Positions 1,615-15,524 of a stretch of DNA of 21,446 bases are shown in pieces. Both the position numbers and the translations under genes were made by a program. The stretch is taken from the IMG/VR virus record IMGVR_UViG_3300025418_001001, positions 1-21,446 of that record, one strand, 5' to 3'. The notes below the pieces were generated by a model. The model was not told the origin of the DNA and made no database searches. It saw only the letters and a program-made list of their open reading frames with translations. This DNA is from a virus. Position 1 is the stretch's first letter; each line of letters begins with the position of its first letter.

Positions 1615-2307
1615 ATGTCAACAGCTCTCACTGGCAAGGTCGCTGGCTCACCAGCGTCGAATCAATATGGCGAGTACACCGTACAAGTGTGCTCGCCAAA
1701 GCAGGCGTCATTCATTCAGTCATTGCTCAACACTCGCAAGCACTCATTGCCTATCACTGACGCAACGACAGTAAATAAAAAGCATGCGTCGAGAATCATT
1801 GACGAATTGCTCAAGTGTCCAAAGCTCGTGCCCGACCTTGCGACATCAAAGCAGGTTGAGTACATCAACGCTCTTATCACGACTCGACAAACGGCTCAGC
1901 TGTACGTCGAGTCATCATTGAAACGTCATGGTGTTACTGACATTGCACAGTTGTCACGTGACAATGCACGTTCATTGATTACAACACTCAAGATACTTCC
2001 ATTCGTTGGCGTTGCTGTATCGGTCACTGAGGTCGGTGCGTATCGTCATGGTGAGACGTACTACTCAGTCCGCAAGTCAGGTCAGAGTGGCAAGTTGATT
2101 GCTTACGAATTCGACCCTGATACGAGAAGCTGGAACTTCGCACGAGGTGCCATCTATTCATTGCAACCATCGGAGCGCCTGACATTGTCAGAAGCTAAAA
2201 AATTCGGTGTGCAAACAGGTCAGTGCGTTCATTGCGGTCGCACTCTGACTGACCCGATATCCATCATGGCTGGTCTTGGCACAGTCTGTATCAAACGATA
2301 CGCCTGA
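1615..2307 (+). CDS. DUF6011-type zinc-finger-like protein
   Basis: A 230-residue protein. Its C-terminus has the pattern C204-x2-C207-GRTLTDP-...-GLGTVC225, which matches what I know of the DUF6011 family of actinobacteria and their phages, probably a small metal-binding module. Two upstream segments share a repeated plan, S-P-K-Q-A-S-F-I-Q-S-L-L near residue 28 and S-K-Q-V-E-Y-I-N-A-L-I near residue 78. Similar K-Q-x-x-x-I-x-x-L-L helices are common in phage proteins of this type. A perfect AAGGAGG site lies before the ATG. It sits directly upstream of the AAA ATPase and may act with it, but no biochemical role is known to me. Confidence 0.75.
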   Translation: MSTALTGKVAGSPASNQYGEYTVQVCSPKQASFIQSLLNTRKHSLPITDATTVNKKHASRIIDELLKCPKLVPDLATSKQVEYINALITTRQTAQLYVESSLKRHGVTDIAQLSRDNARSLITTLKILPFVGVAVSVTEVGAYRHGETYYSVRKSGQSGKLIAYEFDPDTRSWNFARGAIYSLQPSERLTLSEAKKFGVQTGQCVHCGRTLTDPISIMAGLGTVCIKRYA

Positions 2308-2329: not shown

Positions 2330-3715
2330 ATGTACGGAGCATTAATCGTCTCGCAAACTCATGGGGACACCGTTGTACGTCAAACCGTCATTGCGAATTG
2401 CAATGGCGTTGTCCATAAGTGGTGGCGATTCACCAATGGCAAACAAGGCAAACAGAATGCGTGGGTCACTGGTGCATTCGATATCAACGCCAGCAACGAA
2501 CAGTTGATTGGCAAAGTTATCTCAACACCATTGACCATCAATGACATCGACGAAATCGAGAACAGTCCATTGCCACGTGTTCTCTTTCAGAAGTTGATTC
2601 GTCAGCATTCATTGCAAGAGCAAACAGTTGTCACCGAAGATATCGACGCACTCGTTCGATACATCGAGGACATTGCACAAGTTGACCCATCCGCACTCAA
2701 GACCTACTACATCGATAACAGAGGGAAAAAATCCATGGCAACACAAACACTGAACTCGGTCATCGAGGTCGCTTATCAGCCACCAGCGCCTGTTACAAGC
2801 AACGTTGCGCCAGTGGTCACTGTCAATAACGGTGAGAAGCGAATCTCATTCGTACCAACAGCAGAGCACGTCAGCAATTACATCGAGCGAACGATTGCTG
2901 GTGTCAAAGAACACCAGTGGTTCGACTTCGCATTGCAGAACAACCTCAACGTGCTTCTCTTCGGTGAGGCTGGTACTGGTAAGACATCGTCGGTCATGAA
3001 CTTCGCCAAAGAGCGTGGTCTCTCGTTCTACTCACTTGCTGGCAATATCGCACTCGAGCCATCGCAGATATTCGGCAGTGACCGTCCACAACCTGACGGC
3101 ACATTCAAGTGGGTCGACGGTGGTCTCACTGAAGTGGTACGCAATGGCGGTGTGCTGTTGCTCAACGAGTTGTCATTCGCACCAGCTCGTATCATGACGG
3201 TGCTCTTCTCGTTGCTCGACTATCGTCGCTCCATCACATTGATGGACAACGGCAACGAAGTCATTCATGCACATCCTGACTTGCTGATTGTCGCTGACAT
3301 GAATCCAAGTTACCGAGGAACTTCGTTGCTCAACGAGGCACTCAAAGACCGATTCGAATTGAAGATTGCATACGAGTACGACAGTGCAATTGAGAAGCGA
3401 ATTCTTACATCGTCAACACTGATTGACCTTGCTCGTGATATGCGAAAGACATCTCGTGGCATGGACTCAGCAGTGCCTACAAGCGATAACGGAATCGTAT
3501 TCGAGACCCCGATATCAACTCGATTGCTCAAGACATTCGAGAAGGTTGCAAAGGGATTGAGCTACGACTTCGCTGTCTACAACTTCATCAATAACTTCGA
3601 ACCCGAAGAACGTGGTGCAGTGAAGATACTTCTCGAGTCACTCGAGACCAACTTGAAGTCAGACCTTGGTCTGCAATTCGAATCCATTGACGTCGACGTT
3701 ACGGAGACCGTATGA
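2330..3715 (+). CDS. MoxR-like AAA+ ATPase (CobS/AAA_5 type)
   Basis: A 461-residue protein. Residues 1 to about 135 form an unrecognised N-terminal region. The AAA+ core follows, with Walker A GEAGTGKT at 212-219, Walker B-like VLLLNE at 275-280, a sensor-1 segment (LLIVADMNP) and a probable arginine finger in LKDRF. The nearest known families are the MoxR and CobS-type ATPases (AAA_5), which form hexameric rings and drive remodelling or metal insertion together with a VWA partner. That partner is the next gene, overlapping by ATGA (3712-3715). The Walker B aspartate appears as asparagine (N279), an oddity that could weaken hydrolysis or be a family trait. The target of the machine is unknown. 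Confidence 0.85.
   Translation: MYGALIVSQTHGDTVVRQTVIANCNGVVHKWWRFTNGKQGKQNAWVTGAFDINASNEQLIGKVISTPLTINDIDEIENSPLPRVLFQKLIRQHSLQEQTVVTEDIDALVRYIEDIAQVDPSALKTYYIDNRGKKSMATQTLNSVIEVAYQPPAPVTSNVAPVVTVNNGEKRISFVPTAEHVSNYIERTIAGVKEHQWFDFALQNNLNVLLFGEAGTGKTSSVMNFAKERGLSFYSLAGNIALEPSQIFGSDRPQPDGTFKWVDGGLTEVVRNGGVLLLNELSFAPARIMTVLFSLLDYRRSITLMDNGNEVIHAHPDLLIVADMNPSYRGTSLLNEALKDRFELKIAYEYDSAIEKRILTSSTLIDLARDMRKTSRGMDSAVPTSDNGIVFETPISTRLLKTFEKVAKGLSYDFAVYNFINNFEPEERGAVKILLESLETNLKSDLGLQFESIDVDVTETV
2721..2737 (+). promoter_or_regulatory. Possible internal ribosome binding site and ATG within AAA gene
   Basis: GAGGG (2721-2725) sits nine bases before an in-frame ATG at 2735, which is codon 136. Initiation here would give a protein containing the AAA core without the N-terminal region. 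The site is suggestive, not proven. Confidence 0.35.
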
Positions 3716-5655
3716 CCTCATTCATCGATACCTTCCAGCAAGACCTACAGGAGCGCCATCGCCAACGCCTAGAGCGCTTCTGTCAGGTCTTCGGACGTGT
3801 CAACGGTGTACTCGCACTTCGTCCTATCAAAGTGCGAGTTGAGAACTCAGAGTTGAATGCGCCTGCATATTCCAATGCGAATGAAGTCGTATTCAACTCT
3901 CGATTGATTGGCGAGCTGAAGACCGAGCGAGACCTTCTCGCTATCTACGGTCTCGACTTCCATGAGATTGGGCACGTGCTCTTCACACCACGTCATGGTT
4001 CACGTCTCGTTGATTACGTCGTGGACAACGGATACTGGTCAGCATTCAATGCACTTGAAGATTGCAGACTAGAACGATTGCTCACTGGTAAGTATCCATC
4101 GATTGCAAAGTGGCTAACAGCAACAGTCTCATTGCACTTGATTGAGAACTCAAAGTCATTCGACACGTCGTATCTCTTGCTACGTGGTCGCAGATATCTG
4201 CCAGCTGAATTGCGTGCCGAGTCTCGCAAGGCATACAAGAATCAAGATGACATTGCCGAACTATGCGACGTCGTTGATTCCTATCGTGACCTTGTCTTTC
4301 CACGTGATTACGAAGTCGCAGAAGACCTCATTGCTCGCTTCCACAAGCTGTTAGGTGGCAACGATTCACAAGGTCAAGACCAAGACCAAGAGCAAGGTCA
4401 GGGCGAGGGTCAGGGCAAGCGTGTTCGCATTACTATCAAAGACCCATTCGGTCATGGTGAGCGACCACACGAAGGCGTTGACTCAAGCACATCACGTCCA
4501 CTGAATCAGAAGCAACAGGAGCGAGCACGTGACAATGCTCCTGACGCTGGTAATGACGAAGATATCAATGATGAAGATGACATTGATATTGATATTGATA
4601 TCACGCTTGACTTCAGTGATTCAGATGATTCAGATAATTCAGATGACGAAGAGTCATCAGAAGAATCAGATGATGATTCAGATATCGATGACGTTGATGA
4701 TTCAGATGACGTCGATGATGAAGAGGAATCAGATGATGGCGAATCATCCAATGGTCAGTCTGCTGGCAATGCAGAAGCTGACAAGACCGAGACATTGCTA
4801 AACAACATCATTGATGAACTTCTCAATAACGAGGAGGTCATTAAAGAGATTGACAATGTACTTCGTCAGGTCAGTGGCTTGCCATCACTATCAAGCAACG
4901 GTGCACAAGAGCCCGAGATTGCCCGATACAAAGAGCAACCAGCAGACAGCACGTCAGCTGGTGTTGCTCGTTCATTCGGACGTGAGCTCGAGCGATTGCG
5001 TGCCAGTGTTGACCCAGCTTGGGATAGGCACTTGTCCAGTGGCAAGCTCAATGCAAAGCGTGCAATGCGTGGTGATGACCACGATTCTATTTATGACCAA
5101 TGGAATCAGGGACGCACTGACGCAACCGATATCGAATGCGTCATCATGCTTGACACCAGTGGCTCGATGGGCGGTGTACCTGCAACGCAGGCATATCGCT
5201 CCATGTATGCCATCAAGCGAGCACTCGACCGTATCAATGCCAGCACTACAGTGTTGACATTCTCAAGCTATGCACAGACGCTGTACTCAAAGCATGAGAA
5301 GGCAGGCACATTGATTCGTGACGCTGGTACAGGTGGAGGCACCGAACCAACTGACGCAATTGCTTATGCCACTCGAGTCTTCGCAGAGTCTGATAAGCCC
5401 ACCAAGCTTCTGATTGCTATCACTGATGGCGTATGGAGCGGTGAAGAGCGGGCACACCGAGAAGCCATTACTCGCATGAAGCGAGCTGGTGTTCTCACAT
5501 CACTGGCGTACATCACGCAACGTCAGGGCACGTTGCGTAAGGAGGCGCTCTACGGCTGTGAGATTGGGCAGGTCATTACTAATCCGTCTGACCTTGTCGG
5601 TCTCGCTCGCAACCTCGTGAAGACAGCGATTGCTCGCCAACTCACGAATGCATAA
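3712..5655 (+). CDS. VWA-domain protein with HExxH motif and acidic linker (CobT/DUF2201-like)
   Basis: A 647-residue protein, partner of the upstream AAA ATPase. The N-terminal part has HEIGH at 84-88, a zinc-metallopeptidase-type HExxH signature. Residues about 219-234 are Gln/Gly-rich, and about 280-347 form a very acidic Asp/Ser/Glu linker. A VWA domain follows, with MIDAS motif DTSGS at 481-485, a further Thr in a GGGTEPTD segment near 544 and an ITDG segment near 570. An acidic linker before a VWA domain is typical of chelatase subunits CobT and ChlD, and a HExxH domain joined to VWA is known from DUF2201-type proteins. I infer a MoxR-VWA remodelling or proteolytic complex, not true cobaltochelatase, because no CobN-like subunit is present. 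GGAG precedes the overlapping ATG. Confidence 0.85.
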   Translation: MTSFIDTFQQDLQERHRQRLERFCQVFGRVNGVLALRPIKVRVENSELNAPAYSNANEVVFNSRLIGELKTERDLLAIYGLDFHEIGHVLFTPRHGSRLVDYVVDNGYWSAFNALEDCRLERLLTGKYPSIAKWLTATVSLHLIENSKSFDTSYLLLRGRRYLPAELRAESRKAYKNQDDIAELCDVVDSYRDLVFPRDYEVAEDLIARFHKLLGGNDSQGQDQDQEQGQGEGQGKRVRITIKDPFGHGERPHEGVDSSTSRPLNQKQQERARDNAPDAGNDEDINDEDDIDIDIDITLDFSDSDDSDNSDDEESSEESDDDSDIDDVDDSDDVDDEEESDDGESSNGQSAGNAEADKTETLLNNIIDELLNNEEVIKEIDNVLRQVSGLPSLSSNGAQEPEIARYKEQPADSTSAGVARSFGRELERLRASVDPAWDRHLSSGKLNAKRAMRGDDHDSIYDQWNQGRTDATDIECVIMLDTSGSMGGVPATQAYRSMYAIKRALDRINASTTVLTFSSYAQTLYSKHEKAGTLIRDAGTGGGTEPTDAIAYATRVFAESDKPTKLLIAITDGVWSGEERAHREAITRMKRAGVLTSLAYITQRQGTLRKEALYGCEIGQVITNPSDLVGLARNLVKTAIARQLTNA

Positions 5656-8530: not shown

Positions 8531-9802
8531 ATGGCATACGTTGTAAAGCGTGGAGATAGATTCACTGGCTATTATCGCAAGGGCAATAGACGCCTATCAG
8601 CTGGCACATGGGCTACCAAGGTAGAAGCCGAGTATTACGCAGTCAAAGCAGAAGTCAACGGCTCAGAGGGGCGCTCACGTATCACTATGAGCCTTGCCGA
8701 TTACATCGAGTCGTGGCTACCAGTAGCACACGTCCTGCCTATCACGAAGAAAGGCTACGAGGCTGTTCTACGCACTCACGTGTTGCCACGCATAGGCAAT
8801 AAGAAAGTTTCACAAGTAACACGTCGAGTCGTGCGTGACCTACTTGATGACCTCAAGCATGATGGCGTGGGCAGTGCAACGATTGCACAAGTCAAAGCGT
8901 CATTAGGTTCAGCACTAAGGCCATTGATTGAGACTGAAGAGCTAACGGCCAACCCAACACATGGGATTACCATTAAAAAGACTAATGCAGACTTTAGCAA
9001 TGTGCTTGAGCCTGAGGAATTCAAACTTATTCTGGAGAAGCTACCAGAACATGCACAGCTGTTCGCTAAGTTTCTTGTCATGTCTGGCACCAGATTCGGT
9101 GAAGCCACTGAGGTGCGTGTTAAAGACTTTAACTTTAAGAGTGGAGAAGTCTACATTCAACGGCGTGTCAGTGACTTAGGTGCAAAGCACAATAAAGGTC
9201 AACGGTTTCTTGTAGTAGAAGCAACGAAATCAGGCTATAAGCGCAGTATTACGCTATCTAAAGCACTACTACAAGAGATAAAAGACTATGTCTCAGTAAA
9301 CGAATTAAAAAAAGATAGCTTGCTGTTCTCAAGAACACTGGTGTTACCAGCAGGTAAACTAGAATCTTCACGTGGCACAAAGTCATCTCGACCATTCGAG
9401 AATGACGGAAAAACGTTCCAGCATGGGACTCTGTACGCCTACTCAACAGGCGGTTGCAGGTGTGATGACTGTAAGCAAGCGGTGCGTGAGTACCGTAGAA
9501 GTTACAGGCAAAGCAAAGGCATTCAACAGAGAACCAGCCATACCGATACGAGTCACTTGCCACGTGATGTATGGAGAAACGTATGGAACACAGCAATTGC
9601 CAAATCAGGAATTGATTGGAGCCCTAGGACGCACGACCTACGACATGCAAATGCAACAGCGTTGCTAAAGAACGGTGTTGACGTGCATGAAGTAAAGGAG
9701 CGTCTAGGTCATCAGTCAATTAAAACGACGGAAAGGTACTTACACCGTATCCGTCACCAGCAGTCAAAGGCAGGTGAGCTTGCTAATGACTTTTTGGAGT
9801 GA
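8531..9802 (+). CDS. int: Tyrosine integrase with embedded Cys-rich insertion
   Basis: A 423-residue tyrosine recombinase that would integrate and excise the phage genome at an attachment site. An N-terminal arm-binding region is followed by a SAM-like core-binding domain (about residues 50-140) and the catalytic domain: R188 in SGTRFGE, H368 and R371 in HDLRH, H394 in LGHQS, and nucleophile Y403 in TTERYLH. Between the first catalytic half and HDLRH lies an unusual insertion at about 295-335 with HGT, a Tyr-rich turn, GGCRCDDC (C309, C311, C314) and a basic tail, a small module I know from other actinophage proteins. AGGAGG before ATG 8531 fixes the start. No attP could be recognised. Confidence 0.93.
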   Translation: MAYVVKRGDRFTGYYRKGNRRLSAGTWATKVEAEYYAVKAEVNGSEGRSRITMSLADYIESWLPVAHVLPITKKGYEAVLRTHVLPRIGNKKVSQVTRRVVRDLLDDLKHDGVGSATIAQVKASLGSALRPLIETEELTANPTHGITIKKTNADFSNVLEPEEFKLILEKLPEHAQLFAKFLVMSGTRFGEATEVRVKDFNFKSGEVYIQRRVSDLGAKHNKGQRFLVVEATKSGYKRSITLSKALLQEIKDYVSVNELKKDSLLFSRTLVLPAGKLESSRGTKSSRPFENDGKTFQHGTLYAYSTGGCRCDDCKQAVREYRRSYRQSKGIQQRTSHTDTSHLPRDVWRNVWNTAIAKSGIDWSPRTHDLRHANATALLKNGVDVHEVKERLGHQSIKTTERYLHRIRHQQSKAGELANDFLE

Positions 9803-10472: not shown

Positions 10473-10928
10473 ATGGAATACGACCCACACAAAGCACGCC
10501 AATGGGTTACTGATGAGCGTTATGACCATAAAAAAGAATTAGCAAAGAACATTCAAAAGATTAGCAAAGAACAACGAGAAGAGCTGTATTGGAAGCATCT
10601 CGCTACAGCAGGATTTAAGATGGATGATGAGGGCGTAGCTCTAGTCTGCGAAAAATGTGATAATGAAATTAGCTCTCACCGTTGGAGCTCGTTGTATGCA
10701 GAAGAGTACTTCACGACGCTTCGGTACAGAGCCAAAGCATTACGTGAAGCACACATCTGCTTTAAACCAACTAAGGTAGTAAAGCGTTCAACTTATCAAG
10801 ACGAAATCCCGACCAAGAATCATCGTCAGTTACCACTATCGGAGCCGTCTTATAACCCTTCTCCTCTATCAAAGAGAAAATCTCGGGTGAGTCCTGAATC
10901 ATTTTCGAAACAAAAGCAATATCTTTAA
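10473..10928 (+). CDS. Hypothetical protein with CxxC motif, convergent with NrdH gene
   Basis: A 151-residue protein starting at ATG 10473 with AGGAG upstream. Residues 1-98 look like a genuine domain: a charged helical part and then C59-x2-C62 with later H69, H94 and C96, a possible zinc site. Residues 100-151 are low in structure (Pro/Ser/Lys-rich) and are encoded on DNA that also encodes the redoxin on the other strand. The protein may originally have ended near residue 100 and grown by loss of a stop codon. Family unknown. It is the last plus-strand gene. Confidence 0.6.
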   Translation: MEYDPHKARQWVTDERYDHKKELAKNIQKISKEQREELYWKHLATAGFKMDDEGVALVCEKCDNEISSHRWSSLYAEEYFTTLRYRAKALREAHICFKPTKVVKRSTYQDEIPTKNHRQLPLSEPSYNPSPLSKRKSRVSPESFSKQKQYL

Positions 10929-10992
10929 GAGTTAAGAATCGCTTCGTATTCTCGCATTGCACACAATTGGTATTGCTGTAGATAGTTATCAT
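10771..10992 (-). CDS. nrdH: NrdH-type glutaredoxin-like redoxin
   Basis: A 73-residue thioredoxin-fold protein with active-site C10-V-Q-C13 near its N-terminus and the conserved ending APIVVTDDDSWSGFRLDKL, typical of NrdH redoxins. It reduces the active-site disulfide of ribonucleotide reductase, here the enzyme encoded immediately upstream. The start at 10992 is chosen over an in-frame ATG at 11022 because it aligns with the family and has AAGGA at good distance. It also forms an ATGA overlap with the RNR stop, so the two should be translated together. Its last 158 bases overlap a plus-strand gene. Confidence 0.9.
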   Translation of the reverse strand: MITIYSNTNCVQCENTKRFLTLKDIAFVSKMIQDSPEIFSLIEEKGYKTAPIVVTDDDSWSGFRLDKLNALLP

Positions 10993-13004
10993 TGATTGTC
11001 CTTGATGAGCTTTACTTCGCAAGCGTCAGTAGTGCAGTAAGCCTCACCAATAGCGTCAGAAGCCATACCAGCATAGACACCAGCAAAGTCAATGGGGAAG
11101 AGAGACGAACAAGCCTGCTCGTAATCTGCCTCAGTAATCTGTGTGTATGGCATCTGTGGGTAAACAGTGTTACCACTAGGCAGGAATGAGACAGTCTTCA
11201 ATTGACCGTCGTACATATGCAAAGCAGTACCAATAGCATTCGACTCAGTCTCAGGGTCGAAAGAAATAGTGACAGAGACAGAGTTGTCTGACCAATAGCG
11301 TTGCGCTGTTGCAGCTAAAGCCATTTTCTCGTAGATAGAGACATCCTTCTCCGAACGAACAGCGTCGCTCTTTACAGGGAAGAAGACAACAGAAGTTGTA
11401 TCAGGAGATTCGTTAGCTGGCTCTACACGATAGTTAGCCATCTTAAAGAGCGGAAGCATAGGGTCAGCATTACTAAAGCGAATGGCACGCAAGAAATACT
11501 TGCCACCAACAGTCCAGTGAACGCCAGGACTCTCTCCTGCGAGAATGGAGACGGTTCCCGATGGCTTAACGGTTGTCATCTTGATGGACTCACGGATACC
11601 AAGCCATTCAGAGTAAGACTTATCATAAGTTTTCACTACCTCATAGCCTCCATCCATCCAGTCACGCAAGACAGACCAGCCGTTGTTGTCTGCAAAGTTA
11701 GCGACGCCTGAGATAGAAGTACCAATGCGACGGTTGCGTTGCATGATGGCGTTGGTCTCTTGCCAGTGAGTAGGAAGCAACGTCACAGTCTTGGCATAGA
11801 GATATGCAAACTTTAAGGTTCTCTTAAAGTCTTCAATAGATTCATGGCGATTGAGATAGGTCTCAACCAAGGTGCAACACTCGTATGACTCAAGTGATTG
11901 CTCAGCACATGGGTTGTAACCAGCGATGCGCCAGTCCTTGTTGTTGATGGGGTCAGCAAGACGACCGTATTGGCGAGAGACATCCATCCAAATCACGCCT
12001 GGCTCACCATTGCGAGCAATACCGTCAAGAATAGGAGTCAAGTCCTGTCCTACAGATACCTCAACAGAATTGTTGGACATCCATCCGTAAGCACCACGTT
12101 GTGGATTGACATCATAGTTCTTCAGATTGAGAAAGTTCTCATCGTCCAAACGACCCATGAGAAGTTCGGCGGAGCGGCGCACATTGCCAGAGACAACGCA
12201 GACGCCAATCATATTGCCAATGTCTGCAATGTCGGTTCGGGTTAGCTTTTGCCCAGAACGGCCCGCAAACATCTCGTTAATGTGATTGTGAAGTTTCTCT
12301 AATGGCTCATGTCCTGCAGCTGTTCCTCCAAAGGTCTTAATCGGAGCTCCTGCTGGACGGATGACTGAGTAGTCAAAGATAGGCTTCTTCGTATCTGGCT
12401 TAAGGTAGGCATTGAGGAGGGAGGCTGTTGATTCCACCCAGCCTTCTCGTGTGTCAGGGATTTCATAGGTGTAAGTCTCTTGTGGGTCATAGATAGCAAA
12501 GTCCTTGTCTGCTCCCTTATCGTCAAAGCCCACACCCACTCCGAGCATGGAAGCCTCCATAAGGAAAGCGAATGGTTTAGCAGGGTCAGTCCTGGTCATA
12601 GAACCAGTAGAAACAAAAGCACAGTTTTGCAATGCGGCTGAATTTCGTTGTTCGTTGACAAGTGGTGTTCCCATTACCCATAGACCTCGACCAGGCGGTG
12701 TCCACTTCAACTCAAAGAGACGTTGGAAAGCCTCTTTAGCCGAAGCAGCTGCTTTGGCGTCTGACCATGGAAGTCGGTTGATTTTGGCGTGGTCTTTCTG
12801 CAGGGAGTACATGCCGTTGATGACTCGCTCGCATACCTCAGCCCACGTCTCCTTGGTGCCATCCTCCTTGAGGCGAGAATAGGTGCGAAGGAAAGTAATC
12901 TCTCCCACCGAGTTTCCAGCAGCATCTCGGTAGCCAAATGGTGGTTGCTTATCCTTGTATGAAGCGACGAAGTCATCTGCCAAGCGGAAAGAGAATAAAG
13001 CCAT
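10989..13004 (-). CDS. nrdJ: Adenosylcobalamin-dependent (class II) ribonucleoside-triphosphate reductase
   Basis: A 671-residue monomeric class II RNR that converts ribonucleotides to deoxyribonucleotides with adenosylcobalamin as radical source, independent of oxygen. Visible key residues are C128 in QNCAF, the radical cysteine C366 with N364 and E368 in NPCAE, the redox partner C376/C377, a PSGTVS loop, and the C-terminal shuttle pair C657-x4-C662. The N-terminal FLRTYSR and ETWAE segments are typical of the Lactobacillus leichmannii type (RTPR). It is slightly shorter than the roughly 740 residues of that enzyme. It supplies dNTPs for phage replication and depends on host or environmental B12. 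Confidence 0.93.
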   Translation of the reverse strand: MALFSFRLADDFVASYKDKQPPFGYRDAAGNSVGEITFLRTYSRLKEDGTKETWAEVCERVINGMYSLQKDHAKINRLPWSDAKAAASAKEAFQRLFELKWTPPGRGLWVMGTPLVNEQRNSAALQNCAFVSTGSMTRTDPAKPFAFLMEASMLGVGVGFDDKGADKDFAIYDPQETYTYEIPDTREGWVESTASLLNAYLKPDTKKPIFDYSVIRPAGAPIKTFGGTAAGHEPLEKLHNHINEMFAGRSGQKLTRTDIADIGNMIGVCVVSGNVRRSAELLMGRLDDENFLNLKNYDVNPQRGAYGWMSNNSVEVSVGQDLTPILDGIARNGEPGVIWMDVSRQYGRLADPINNKDWRIAGYNPCAEQSLESYECCTLVETYLNRHESIEDFKRTLKFAYLYAKTVTLLPTHWQETNAIMQRNRRIGTSISGVANFADNNGWSVLRDWMDGGYEVVKTYDKSYSEWLGIRESIKMTTVKPSGTVSILAGESPGVHWTVGGKYFLRAIRFSNADPMLPLFKMANYRVEPANESPDTTSVVFFPVKSDAVRSEKDVSIYEKMALAATAQRYWSDNSVSVTISFDPETESNAIGTALHMYDGQLKTVSFLPSGNTVYPQMPYTQITEADYEQACSSLFPIDFAGVYAGMASDAIGEAYCTTDACEVKLIKDNQ

Positions 13005-13519: not shown

Positions 13520-15040
13520 TTACTTGTCTTCGAGGTTTTGACTGATGATTCGAGTGACGCTCTCCTCTTTGAGAGCTTCTGGAAGCTCACGAAGCGCCTG
13601 AGCTCTGTCTCCGAAGATGGCTGAGAGCACTCCTCCTGATGACTGGCGCTCTGCTGTAATGCGAACGAACTCACGGTTCTCTTCCAATTCTTTGAGATTA
13701 GCGACGAGCTTAAAGAGCCTGTCAATTTCCTGAGAAACATTAGGGTCAGCATAGCCACCGTTCATTTCTTCAGCAAATCGCATAAAAGCCACTCTTTGAC
13801 CCTGCATTTCAATCATTGCGGTCATCAAAGCCTTGAGTTGGTCTTTGGTTTTGACCTCGACTGGCAGGTTAAACGCACACATATTGTCGGGCTTGAACGC
13901 TGGGCAATTGCTGGCAACGAAGCAGGTGTTGCATTGGCGAAGCGATGACTGCTGAGTCTGAACGACTGGCACATCCTTGAGAACGTCTTTTCCACTATCG
14001 TCTGTTTCGACAATCGTCTTCATCTTGAAGCCGAAAACTGGGAGGTTTTGCATCTCATCAGGGTTTCTTTGGACTACCTCAGTGGGCGAAACTTTCCGTG
14101 TCTCAAGCTCACTGTTATCAGAAGGTACCCCCCCTAATTCCATCATTAGCCCCGTATACAGGTCATCGCTGTTGTCAGTTACTTTCTCAGCCTTGTCACC
14201 CTTACCACCATCGATAATGTGAAAGTTGGGGCTCTTCTTATCCATAGATTCCTCTAGTTTCTTGTATGACCAGACTGCAACCTTAGTCGCTTCCAGCGTG
14301 TCATCCTGCTTGAACTTATCAAAATCCAAGCCAGCCTTCTCCACTACAGCCTTGTAGCGAATGCGAGCTTGGTCTTTCATCTTCTTGGGATAGCGGACGA
14401 TTCGCTGTCCATCCCACACGATAGTCTCGCCTCGTCTCATGGGCGATAGCCATGACAATGTGCTGGCAGTCGTAAATGGTACCTGTCGCAGGTTGTCGGG
14501 CTTGGCACATCCAAGAGCATGGTACTTGGTGCCGTACTGTCTCTCGTAGGCTCTAGTAATGGCTGAGAGGTTCGTAAGAGCCTCTATCTCGTCATTGGGT
14601 ATTGCGACGTTAGGATAAATACCCGAGAGATATTGGAGGTTGGGCAAGCCATATTCTTGGTGCCAAACGACCCAGAGCTTGGGGTCATGTTCATAAAAAG
14701 GTCTCTGTGCCTCGACCCATGATTGCCCTAATGTTAAAGAATCGAATTCCAAAAAGGCAGTGGCTCGGTCTGCATTGTTGGCGACAAACTCTTGATACTC
14801 GGCGGCAAAGTCGAGGAGCTCTTGTCTGGAAAGGCCCGCTTTATCGGCTTGTGATGCCCCAGACTCAATGATAACTTTTGTATTCTCATCGAAGTGCTCG
14901 CTGATGAGCCATAGTTTTGTTTTAGGCAATCCACGCTTCTTCAGTCCCCAAAAGTTGAGTCCCATCAACTCAACTTTTTGACCTTCTAGCAGGGTTCGGT
15001 TGCTGCCAACCTCAGTGCCTGAGAAGATAATCCTAGTCAC
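13520..15040 (-). CDS. Large protein, possible TGT/DpdA-like barrel fused to Cys-cluster domain
   Basis: GTG at 15040 is taken as start because it overlaps the upstream stop by only eight bases; starting at 15091 would add 17 residues inside that gene. The product is 506 residues. The first ~240 residues suggest a TIM barrel: SGTEVGSNRTLL, IIESGA, FLEFDSLTLG, VVWHQE and HALGCAKPD, then SWLSPMRRGETIVWDG. The order, with an ESGA loop where tRNA-guanine transglycosylases have DSG(G/A)F, hints at a TGT/DpdA-like fold, so a role in 7-deazaguanine DNA or RNA modification is possible. Near residue 385 is a four-Cys cluster, C-x2-C-x5-C-x8-C, then a helical tail resembling conserved actinophage proteins of unknown function. 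The assignment is an inference. Confidence 0.6.
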   Translation of the reverse strand: MTRIIFSGTEVGSNRTLLEGQKVELMGLNFWGLKKRGLPKTKLWLISEHFDENTKVIIESGASQADKAGLSRQELLDFAAEYQEFVANNADRATAFLEFDSLTLGQSWVEAQRPFYEHDPKLWVVWHQEYGLPNLQYLSGIYPNVAIPNDEIEALTNLSAITRAYERQYGTKYHALGCAKPDNLRQVPFTTASTLSWLSPMRRGETIVWDGQRIVRYPKKMKDQARIRYKAVVEKAGLDFDKFKQDDTLEATKVAVWSYKKLEESMDKKSPNFHIIDGGKGDKAEKVTDNSDDLYTGLMMELGGVPSDNSELETRKVSPTEVVQRNPDEMQNLPVFGFKMKTIVETDDSGKDVLKDVPVVQTQQSSLRQCNTCFVASNCPAFKPDNMCAFNLPVEVKTKDQLKALMTAMIEMQGQRVAFMRFAEEMNGGYADPNVSQEIDRLFKLVANLKELEENREFVRITAERQSSGGVLSAIFGDRAQALRELPEALKEESVTRIISQNLEDK

Positions 15041-15524
15041 CCCACTCACCCAACTCTGGGTCTGGCTTCTTGTAATCCAAGGTACGGGCAATGTTAACTC
15101 TTGTAACAGCCTCTTCTATATCCGACCATTTGCGAACCTTTGATGGAGCATCGGGGCGATTCTCTACCTTTGCATAGGAGGGATGAGAAACAAGGAGAGT
15201 GGGAACTTTTTGATGTTCGAAGACCCACGCACACATCGAGGGGTCTGCATCCACATATAGCTCAACGGGGGCATGAGAGCGGGCTATTGTAAACTGTCTC
15301 TTACGAAGGTCTTCGCCTTCTAGGTTGTAGGAGAAATCAATCAGGTCATCGTAGTTGATGACGCCATGGGAGAAGAGCCAGTGCTCCGCATCCTCTTTGG
15401 TGCGAGAGGTAACGATGGCAACTCGATTGCTGGAGTTGAGCGCATAGTAGAGAGCGACACCTGCTCTGATTGGTTCGCCTGTGTCGGAACTAAGTACGCC
15501 GTCTAGTGATAGAAGTATGTTCAC
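15033..15524 (-). CDS. HAD-like protein without nucleophile Asp
   Basis: A 163-residue protein starting at GTG with AAAGGG upstream, one base after the previous stop. The N-terminal LLSLDGVL matches HAD motif I (usually DxDGxL), but the first Asp, the phosphoryl-accepting nucleophile, is Ser6; D8 remains. A motif II-like TSR segment follows near residue 39 and a motif IV-like VDADPS near residues 92-97. Without the nucleophile it is probably not a phosphatase; it may bind a ligand or partner. It is coupled to the nucleotidyltransferase-like gene upstream and the large barrel protein downstream. Confidence 0.65.
   Translation of the reverse strand: MNILLSLDGVLSSDTGEPIRAGVALYYALNSSNRVAIVTSRTKEDAEHWLFSHGVINYDDLIDFSYNLEGEDLRKRQFTIARSHAPVELYVDADPSMCAWVFEHQKVPTLLVSHPSYAKVENRPDAPSKVRKWSDIEEAVTRVNIARTLDYKKPDPELGEWGD

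Follow-up and report, generated by a model that had tools for sequence, protein, structure and literature searches.

A pair of overlapping genes in a viral record of 21,446 bp (hereafter the window, the whole stretch of DNA that was analysed) probably encodes an ATP-powered protein-remodelling protease and not a cobaltochelatase. The first gene specifies an AAA_5 ATPase and the second a VWA protein whose N-terminal domain carries the zincin motif HExxH. The protease reading is favoured because HExxH is kept in 126 of 126 intact phage partners and lost in CobT (0 of 7 CobT or CobT-like sequences), a sequence-level reason for preferring it. The same reasoning covers the cobS and "peptidase" core genes of cyanophages, whose role was open in 2010, when it was stated that the consequences of a cobalamin increase due to phage cobS were not known (PMC2984593). 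If the reading is correct, phage "CobST", counted both as a B12 auxiliary metabolic pair and as cyanophage core, would be a protease. The vitamin label (CobS/CobT) is widely used in virus ecology, and hence the choice between protease and B12 carries weight.

Pairs of this kind are already known, from two descriptions that conflict with each other. In group 2.2 jumbo phages, a MoxR protein is accompanied by a vWA protein with an N-terminal metallopeptidase, and a function in virion assembly or processing has been proposed (PMC7824862). Elsewhere, a two-gene cluster has been named CobST, the cyanophage peptidase label has been deemed a mistake, and hijacking of the host CobN has been proposed (PMC8651126). 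This view is repeated in PMC9503304 and PMC13390420 (2026), and the latter still bases conclusions about viral effects on B12 upon it. The window pair is a member of the PMC7824862 type, given its adjacent AAA and VWA genes and an N-terminal domain that is of the metallopeptidase type by motif; by the equivalog test it is not CobT. The present work adds a motif test across the actinophage-like and cyanophage-like branches, the comparison with CobT, and a freshwater lineage.

The gene pair

The features of the window that bear on the pair are as follows.

1615..2307, + strand: DUF6011-domain gene (PF19474, 1e-7); adjacent here, but not conserved with the pair
2330..3715, + strand: AAA_5/MoxR-CobS-like ring ATPase gene, 461 aa (Pfam PF07728, 5.5e-22; PHROG 249, 6.9e-40)
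2963..2986, + strand: Walker A, GEAGTGKT, aa 212-219
3712..5655, + strand: VWA-zincin partner gene, 647 aa; its start overlaps the ATPase stop
3712..4365, + strand: N-terminal zincin-like domain, aa 1-218 (AlphaFold2 pLDDT 94.2, pTM 0.89)
3961..3975, + strand: HEIGH (HExxH), aa 84-88, in helix 72-91; predicted zinc-binding and catalytic residues
4054..4074, + strand: LEDCRLE, aa 115-121, in helix 109-127; E116 is the predicted third zinc ligand
4495..4779, + strand: acidic linker, mostly disordered, aa 262-356, 45% D/E
4909..5652, + strand: VWA domain, aa 400-647 (PF00092, 1e-7; CobT_C PF11775, 2.5e-6)
5152..5166, + strand: MIDAS, DTSGS, aa 481-485, completed by T544 and D572
10989..13004, - strand: class II (B12-dependent) ribonucleotide reductase (PF17975, 9.7e-30; PF21995, 1.9e-16)

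The coordinates, Walker motifs, linker, and MIDAS confirm a preliminary description of the locus as overlapping genes for a ring ATPase and a VWA-HEIGH protein with an acidic linker. The ATPase gene is preceded by an aggagg motif, begins after a gap of 22 nt from the end of the DUF6011 gene, and overlaps the start of the VWA gene by 4 nt (ATGA, 3712-3715). The DUF6011 gene had been taken as the first member of a three-gene unit, which does not hold: it is not consistently beside the pair in relatives, being absent or elsewhere in most of them.

Besides Walker A, the ATPase carries a Walker B (VLLLNE) and a sensor (DMNP). In profile comparison the solved structures nearest to it are Midasin/Rea1, NorQ, CbbQ, and CobS. 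An N-terminal extension of about 160 aa has no counterpart in the Gordonia and Brevibacterium relatives (alignment A2). The model for bpMoxR ternary conflict systems, PF20030, scores 17 bits against a cut-off of 27, and the PADLOC defence families give weak AAA matches only (e.g. IetA) and none to the VWA protein. No evidence was found for the counter-defence or superinfection-exclusion roles suggested in the preliminary description.

The VWA partner joins an N-terminal domain to a C-terminal VWA domain through the acidic linker, which between aa 285 and 345 reaches 59% D/E with no K or R. From the composition of the protein, HExxH would be expected about 0.017 times, and residues H84, E85, H88, L115, E116, and R119 do not vary among 21 diverse relatives that are 27-49% identical to the window protein (alignment A3). 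Thus, the motif is not there by chance. In the model HExxH lies on a helix with the acidic residue E116 downstream, as predicted for a zincin.

The structural matches of the N-terminal domain are mostly zinc peptidases. The best is E. coli BepA (Z 7.4, rmsd 3.5, 130 residues), followed by selecases, aminopeptidase N (M1), DPP III, Ste24, Wss1, ArdC, and thermolysin, with M48 proteins also present. Every Z value is below the guide of 8, and the Foldseek E value is about 1. The predicted fold around HEIGH is confident and most of its matches are of the metalloprotease kind, but the matches are weak. By itself such a zincin-like fold is suggestive, not proof, and since the fold matches are weak it is motif conservation that carries the protease argument. 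Peptidase M48 (PF01435) scores 15.8 bits on the protein, below its cut-off of 20.3. Viral structure models that match the N-terminal domain include many phage VWA and "CobT" proteins. CobT itself is missing from the structure matches of this domain, for which the library may predate the solved CobT N-terminal domain (21vu), so that its absence carries no information. DUF2201_N (PF13203) was rejected as a description; it has no match in a record with a 100% identical pair and a sub-threshold E value of 0.0065 in DalanDe.

For the VWA domain, the best structural match is the Rea1 MIDAS domain (6qtb, Z 21.4, rmsd 2.5 over 198 residues). Both this match and that of the ATPase point to Rea1/Midasin, which is known as a remodelling machine built of AAA and MIDAS parts.

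Conservation of the pair and of the zincin motif

The closest isolate relatives are Gordonia phages (Bendigovirus and kin) and Brevibacterium phage Cantare, with about 30% identity in the VWA protein and about 43% in the ATPase. In every Gordonia and Brevibacterium isolate examined, an AAA gene adjoins the VWA gene. Among the freshwater relatives that stand further from the window (e.g. L028-L047), identity to the window's proteins is about 61-80% for the reductase, 30-40% for the ATPase, and 26-45% for the VWA protein. Fast divergence of the two partners is what a changing target could produce; other explanations exist.

A first scan of viral contigs via A1 gave 38 loci, but its patterns contained "HE", which biased the motif counts. 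Counts were therefore taken from loci fetched with the ATPase alone, a sampling that did not select for HExxH because the partners were found via the ATPase only. Of 80 actinophage-like loci obtained this way, 72 have a VWA gene directly downstream and the other 8 run off the contig; the pair is thus conserved as a pair. An alignment of cyanophage CobS retrieved 80 further loci, with a VWA partner in 70. All 72 actinophage-like partners, which form 46 clusters at 90% identity and 10 at 50%, carry HExxH, and so do all 54 cyanophage-like partners whose 5' end is intact or whose N-terminus bears the motif. Across the 126 intact partners of the combined set, HExxH is always followed by the downstream acidic residue; among the actinophage-like proteins this residue is E 60 times and D 12 times, and in the cyanophage-like ones it is E in all 54. 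Of the 72 actinophage-like partners, 68 have a full MIDAS pattern. HExxH also occurs in Gordonia and Brevibacterium phages, S-CRM01, S-CAM1, ICP2, Forza, phiOC, DSL-LC01, and E. coli phage-plasmids.

Several loci show individual variation. In one clade (L095-L097, L100-L105, L107, L123, and L148) LDDQRIE replaces LEDxRIE, making the predicted third ligand Asp and not Glu. At L046:4974-7042 the VWA protein is in two pieces, and L043 (the same virus as L138) lacks the DxSxS segment, which means either a defective MIDAS or an assembly error.

Loss of the motif is seen at the margins of the family. ICP2 deviates at the third-ligand segment and keeps HExxH; the "CobT" of the Acinetobacter phage-plasmid pORAB01 (L061:2918-4840) has lost HExxH (DQEVAK) and keeps LEEARVE and the AAA neighbour. 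These two cases indicate that catalysis is not needed everywhere. In chromosomal relatives the motif is degenerate, with HALGH in Chloroflexota and HEVAR in Nocardioides. The Chloroflexota AAA-VWA pairs with HALGH are at L066:4178-6645 and L067:1368-3778; the former has ABC transporter and CbiQ genes in its vicinity and a tRNA synthetase upstream.

Comparison with CobT and the cobalamin question

HExxH is absent from all seven CobT or CobT-like sequences compared, a small sample on the CobT side. These are the CobT proteins of Methylobacterium, Sinorhizobium (HDARVH), Sphingomonas, and Cereibacter, the solved CobT 9uka (HNPRIH), and the CobT-like proteins of Caballeronia and Photobacterium. 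Against the CobT equivalog TIGR01651, the window protein scores 13.1 bits (cut-off 759.05). It exceeds the cut-off of CobT_C (PF11775; 27.7 bits against 21), and among PDB sequences solved CobT matches it best (1.9e-8). Compared by profile, the protein and CobT match with a probability of 96.5% at full length and 9% for the N-terminal part only; the latter figure (8.8%) is too weak alone to serve as proof of homology between the CobT and phage domains. Proteins of SSU5-like phage-plasmids provide a better bridge, matching CobT at 99.9% over the full length and the phage family at 96.4% over the N-terminal part.

No CobN was found in any of 39 related phage, plasmid, and viral records. The window is a fragment, and absence of CobN from its 21 kb alone proves little. 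Taken with the HExxH difference, the 39 records bear out the preliminary view that the pair is unlikely to insert cobalt. The window also contains no cobalamin riboswitch.

A class II reductase, which the preliminary description passes over, lies about 5 kb from the pair in the window and is present in 22 of 22 and 23 of 24 viral records related to it. None was found in 17 records of isolates or plasmids that had been retrieved through the pair or through its ATPase, Gordonia and Brevibacterium phages included; this set includes LP-037, PT11-V19, Pumpernickel, and HHTV-2, which were fetched by the ATPase and have no HExxH partner in the ORFs read. Another reductase large subunit (PF02867) occurs in 5 of the 17 and none in the rest. 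An E. coli control genome gives no CobN match, and E. coli phage-plasmids nonetheless carry the HExxH pair. Given no class II reductase in the 17 isolate and plasmid records, no CobN in the 39 records, and no riboswitch in the window, the link to the reductase is most readily explained by common descent within a single phage lineage. A lineage-specific B12 role for the pair is possible.

Genomic context

Homologues of gp46, gp47, gp45, and gp44 are found near the pair in 75 of 80 cyanophage-like loci. Gordonia phages have the pair close to DnaB, primase, or SSB, Cantare and two phage-plasmids have it close to DnaE, and ICP2 has it close to primase and DNA polymerase. Searches for terminase and portal gave no match in the 160 loci, a weak test with one query each. 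This replication-gene context would be better fitted by early or middle expression than by a late virion role. The transcriptome text of PMC5082946 does not mention the cyanophage cobS and peptidase genes.

Proposed mechanism and alternative explanations

To our knowledge, protease activity is known for no member of the phage AAA plus VWA-HExxH pairs. In the proposed mechanism, the product of the first gene would assemble into a MoxR/Rea1-type AAA_5 ring that extracts or unfolds a substrate. The VWA/MIDAS domain, on its long acidic tether, would dock on the ring or grip the substrate, and the N-terminal zincin domain, presumably binding zinc through HExxH and the downstream E or D, would cut it. 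Judging by the neighbouring genes, the complex would probably act in the replication phase, on a host or replication-machinery protein. The preliminary description had offered a remodelling or proteolytic machine, which the retention of HExxH in phages makes probable. A wider proposal, that phage "CobST" in general is an early-acting AAA+ zinc protease directed at a host or replisome protein, and that CobT, as a descendant or a sister, retained the motor and MIDAS parts after losing the protease site, is put forward tentatively, as an idea that may well be wrong.

The pair might instead be a non-proteolytic MoxR-VWA chaperone, like RavA-ViaA, NorQ-NorD, or CbbQ-CbbO, which matures or reactivates a metalloenzyme or complex and in which HExxH would serve to hold a structural metal or a peptide. 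The best relatives of both ATPase and VWA protein are indeed remodelling chaperones, and cellular relatives as well as pORAB01 keep the pair without the catalytic motif. However, all 126 partners retain the catalytic Glu of HExxH, for which metal binding alone has no need, and this makes the account unlikely. In the window lineage the client could be the nearby class II reductase, as synteny within that lineage would suggest; against this particular client are the phages that bear the pair and no such reductase.

Replacement of the host cobaltochelatase motor subunits, with use of the host CobN to raise B12 for the phage reductase (PMC8651126), would account for the CobT_C score, the full-length CobT profile and PDB matches, and the regular presence of a class II reductase in the window lineage. 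It is at odds with the equivalog score (13 against 759), the 9% N-terminal profile, the retention of HExxH in phages and its loss in CobT, the lack of CobN in 39 records and of a riboswitch in the window, the reductase count of 0 of 17 in isolates and plasmids, and the phage-plasmids of E. coli, whose control genome has no CobN match; on balance it is decidedly improbable. Least credit is given to a virion assembly or maturation protease, as proposed for the group 2.2 jumbo phages and also raised in the preliminary description. It has precedents in maturation proteases and in the MoxR-VWA pair of Acidianus two-tailed virus (cited in PMC7824862), but no evidence for it was found here. The gp46/47/45/44 neighbours, the placement of the pair in isolates, and, as a weak test, the missing terminase and portal matches speak mildly against a late role and leave this explanation very improbable.

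Relation to known systems

The jumbo phage pair (PMC7824862) has the same two genes and the same domain order as the window. The window's pair differs in belonging to a freshwater actinophage-like lineage, with contigs of up to about 100 kb and a class II reductase, and the neighbourhood of its relatives points to the replication phase and not to virion assembly. The cyanophage core cobS and "peptidase" (cobT) genes (PMC3037559, PMC8651126) share HEVGH, EDxR[IV]E, the acidic linker, the VWA domain, and the adjacent AAA gene, and the N-terminal profile of the "peptidase" matches the window family at 96.9%; they differ in their reversed order (VWA first) and low sequence identity. CobS-CobT (9uka) likewise combines an AAA protein with an acidic linker and a MIDAS VWA domain, and its VEQARVE resembles LEDxRxE, but CobT has no HExxH and the phage genes have no CobN. 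The Gordonia and Cantare "CobT-like" and AAA genes differ from those of the window in that no class II reductase was found with them and the ATPase is shorter.

Rea1/Midasin resembles the pair in its AAA_5 domains, D/E-rich linker, and MIDAS domain, and differs in being a single giant eukaryotic chain. We know of no zincin domain in it.

Other genes of the window

The window has actinophage traits, namely WhiB, an SLT-domain lysozyme-like protein, and a tyrosine integrase. Positions 1-1200 contain few genes, with no convincing ORF and no Rfam match. The class II reductase and an adjoining thioredoxin-domain gene occupy 10771-13004 (- strand); the reductase of Actinomycetia phage DSL-LC01 (L063) is 78% identical to that of the window, and this phage also has a gene, at L063:37959-38648, that is annotated as an HslV-like protease subunit. 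At 13520-15091 (- strand) is a PHROG 887 "queuine tRNA-ribosyltransferase" protein (8e-63), also present at L075:18764-19870, which could take part in 7-deazaguanine chemistry of phage DNA. The tyrosine integrase (8531-9802, + strand) has an internal GCRCxxC segment at aa ~290-335 that matches PHROG HNH-endonuclease families and looks like a short inserted module.
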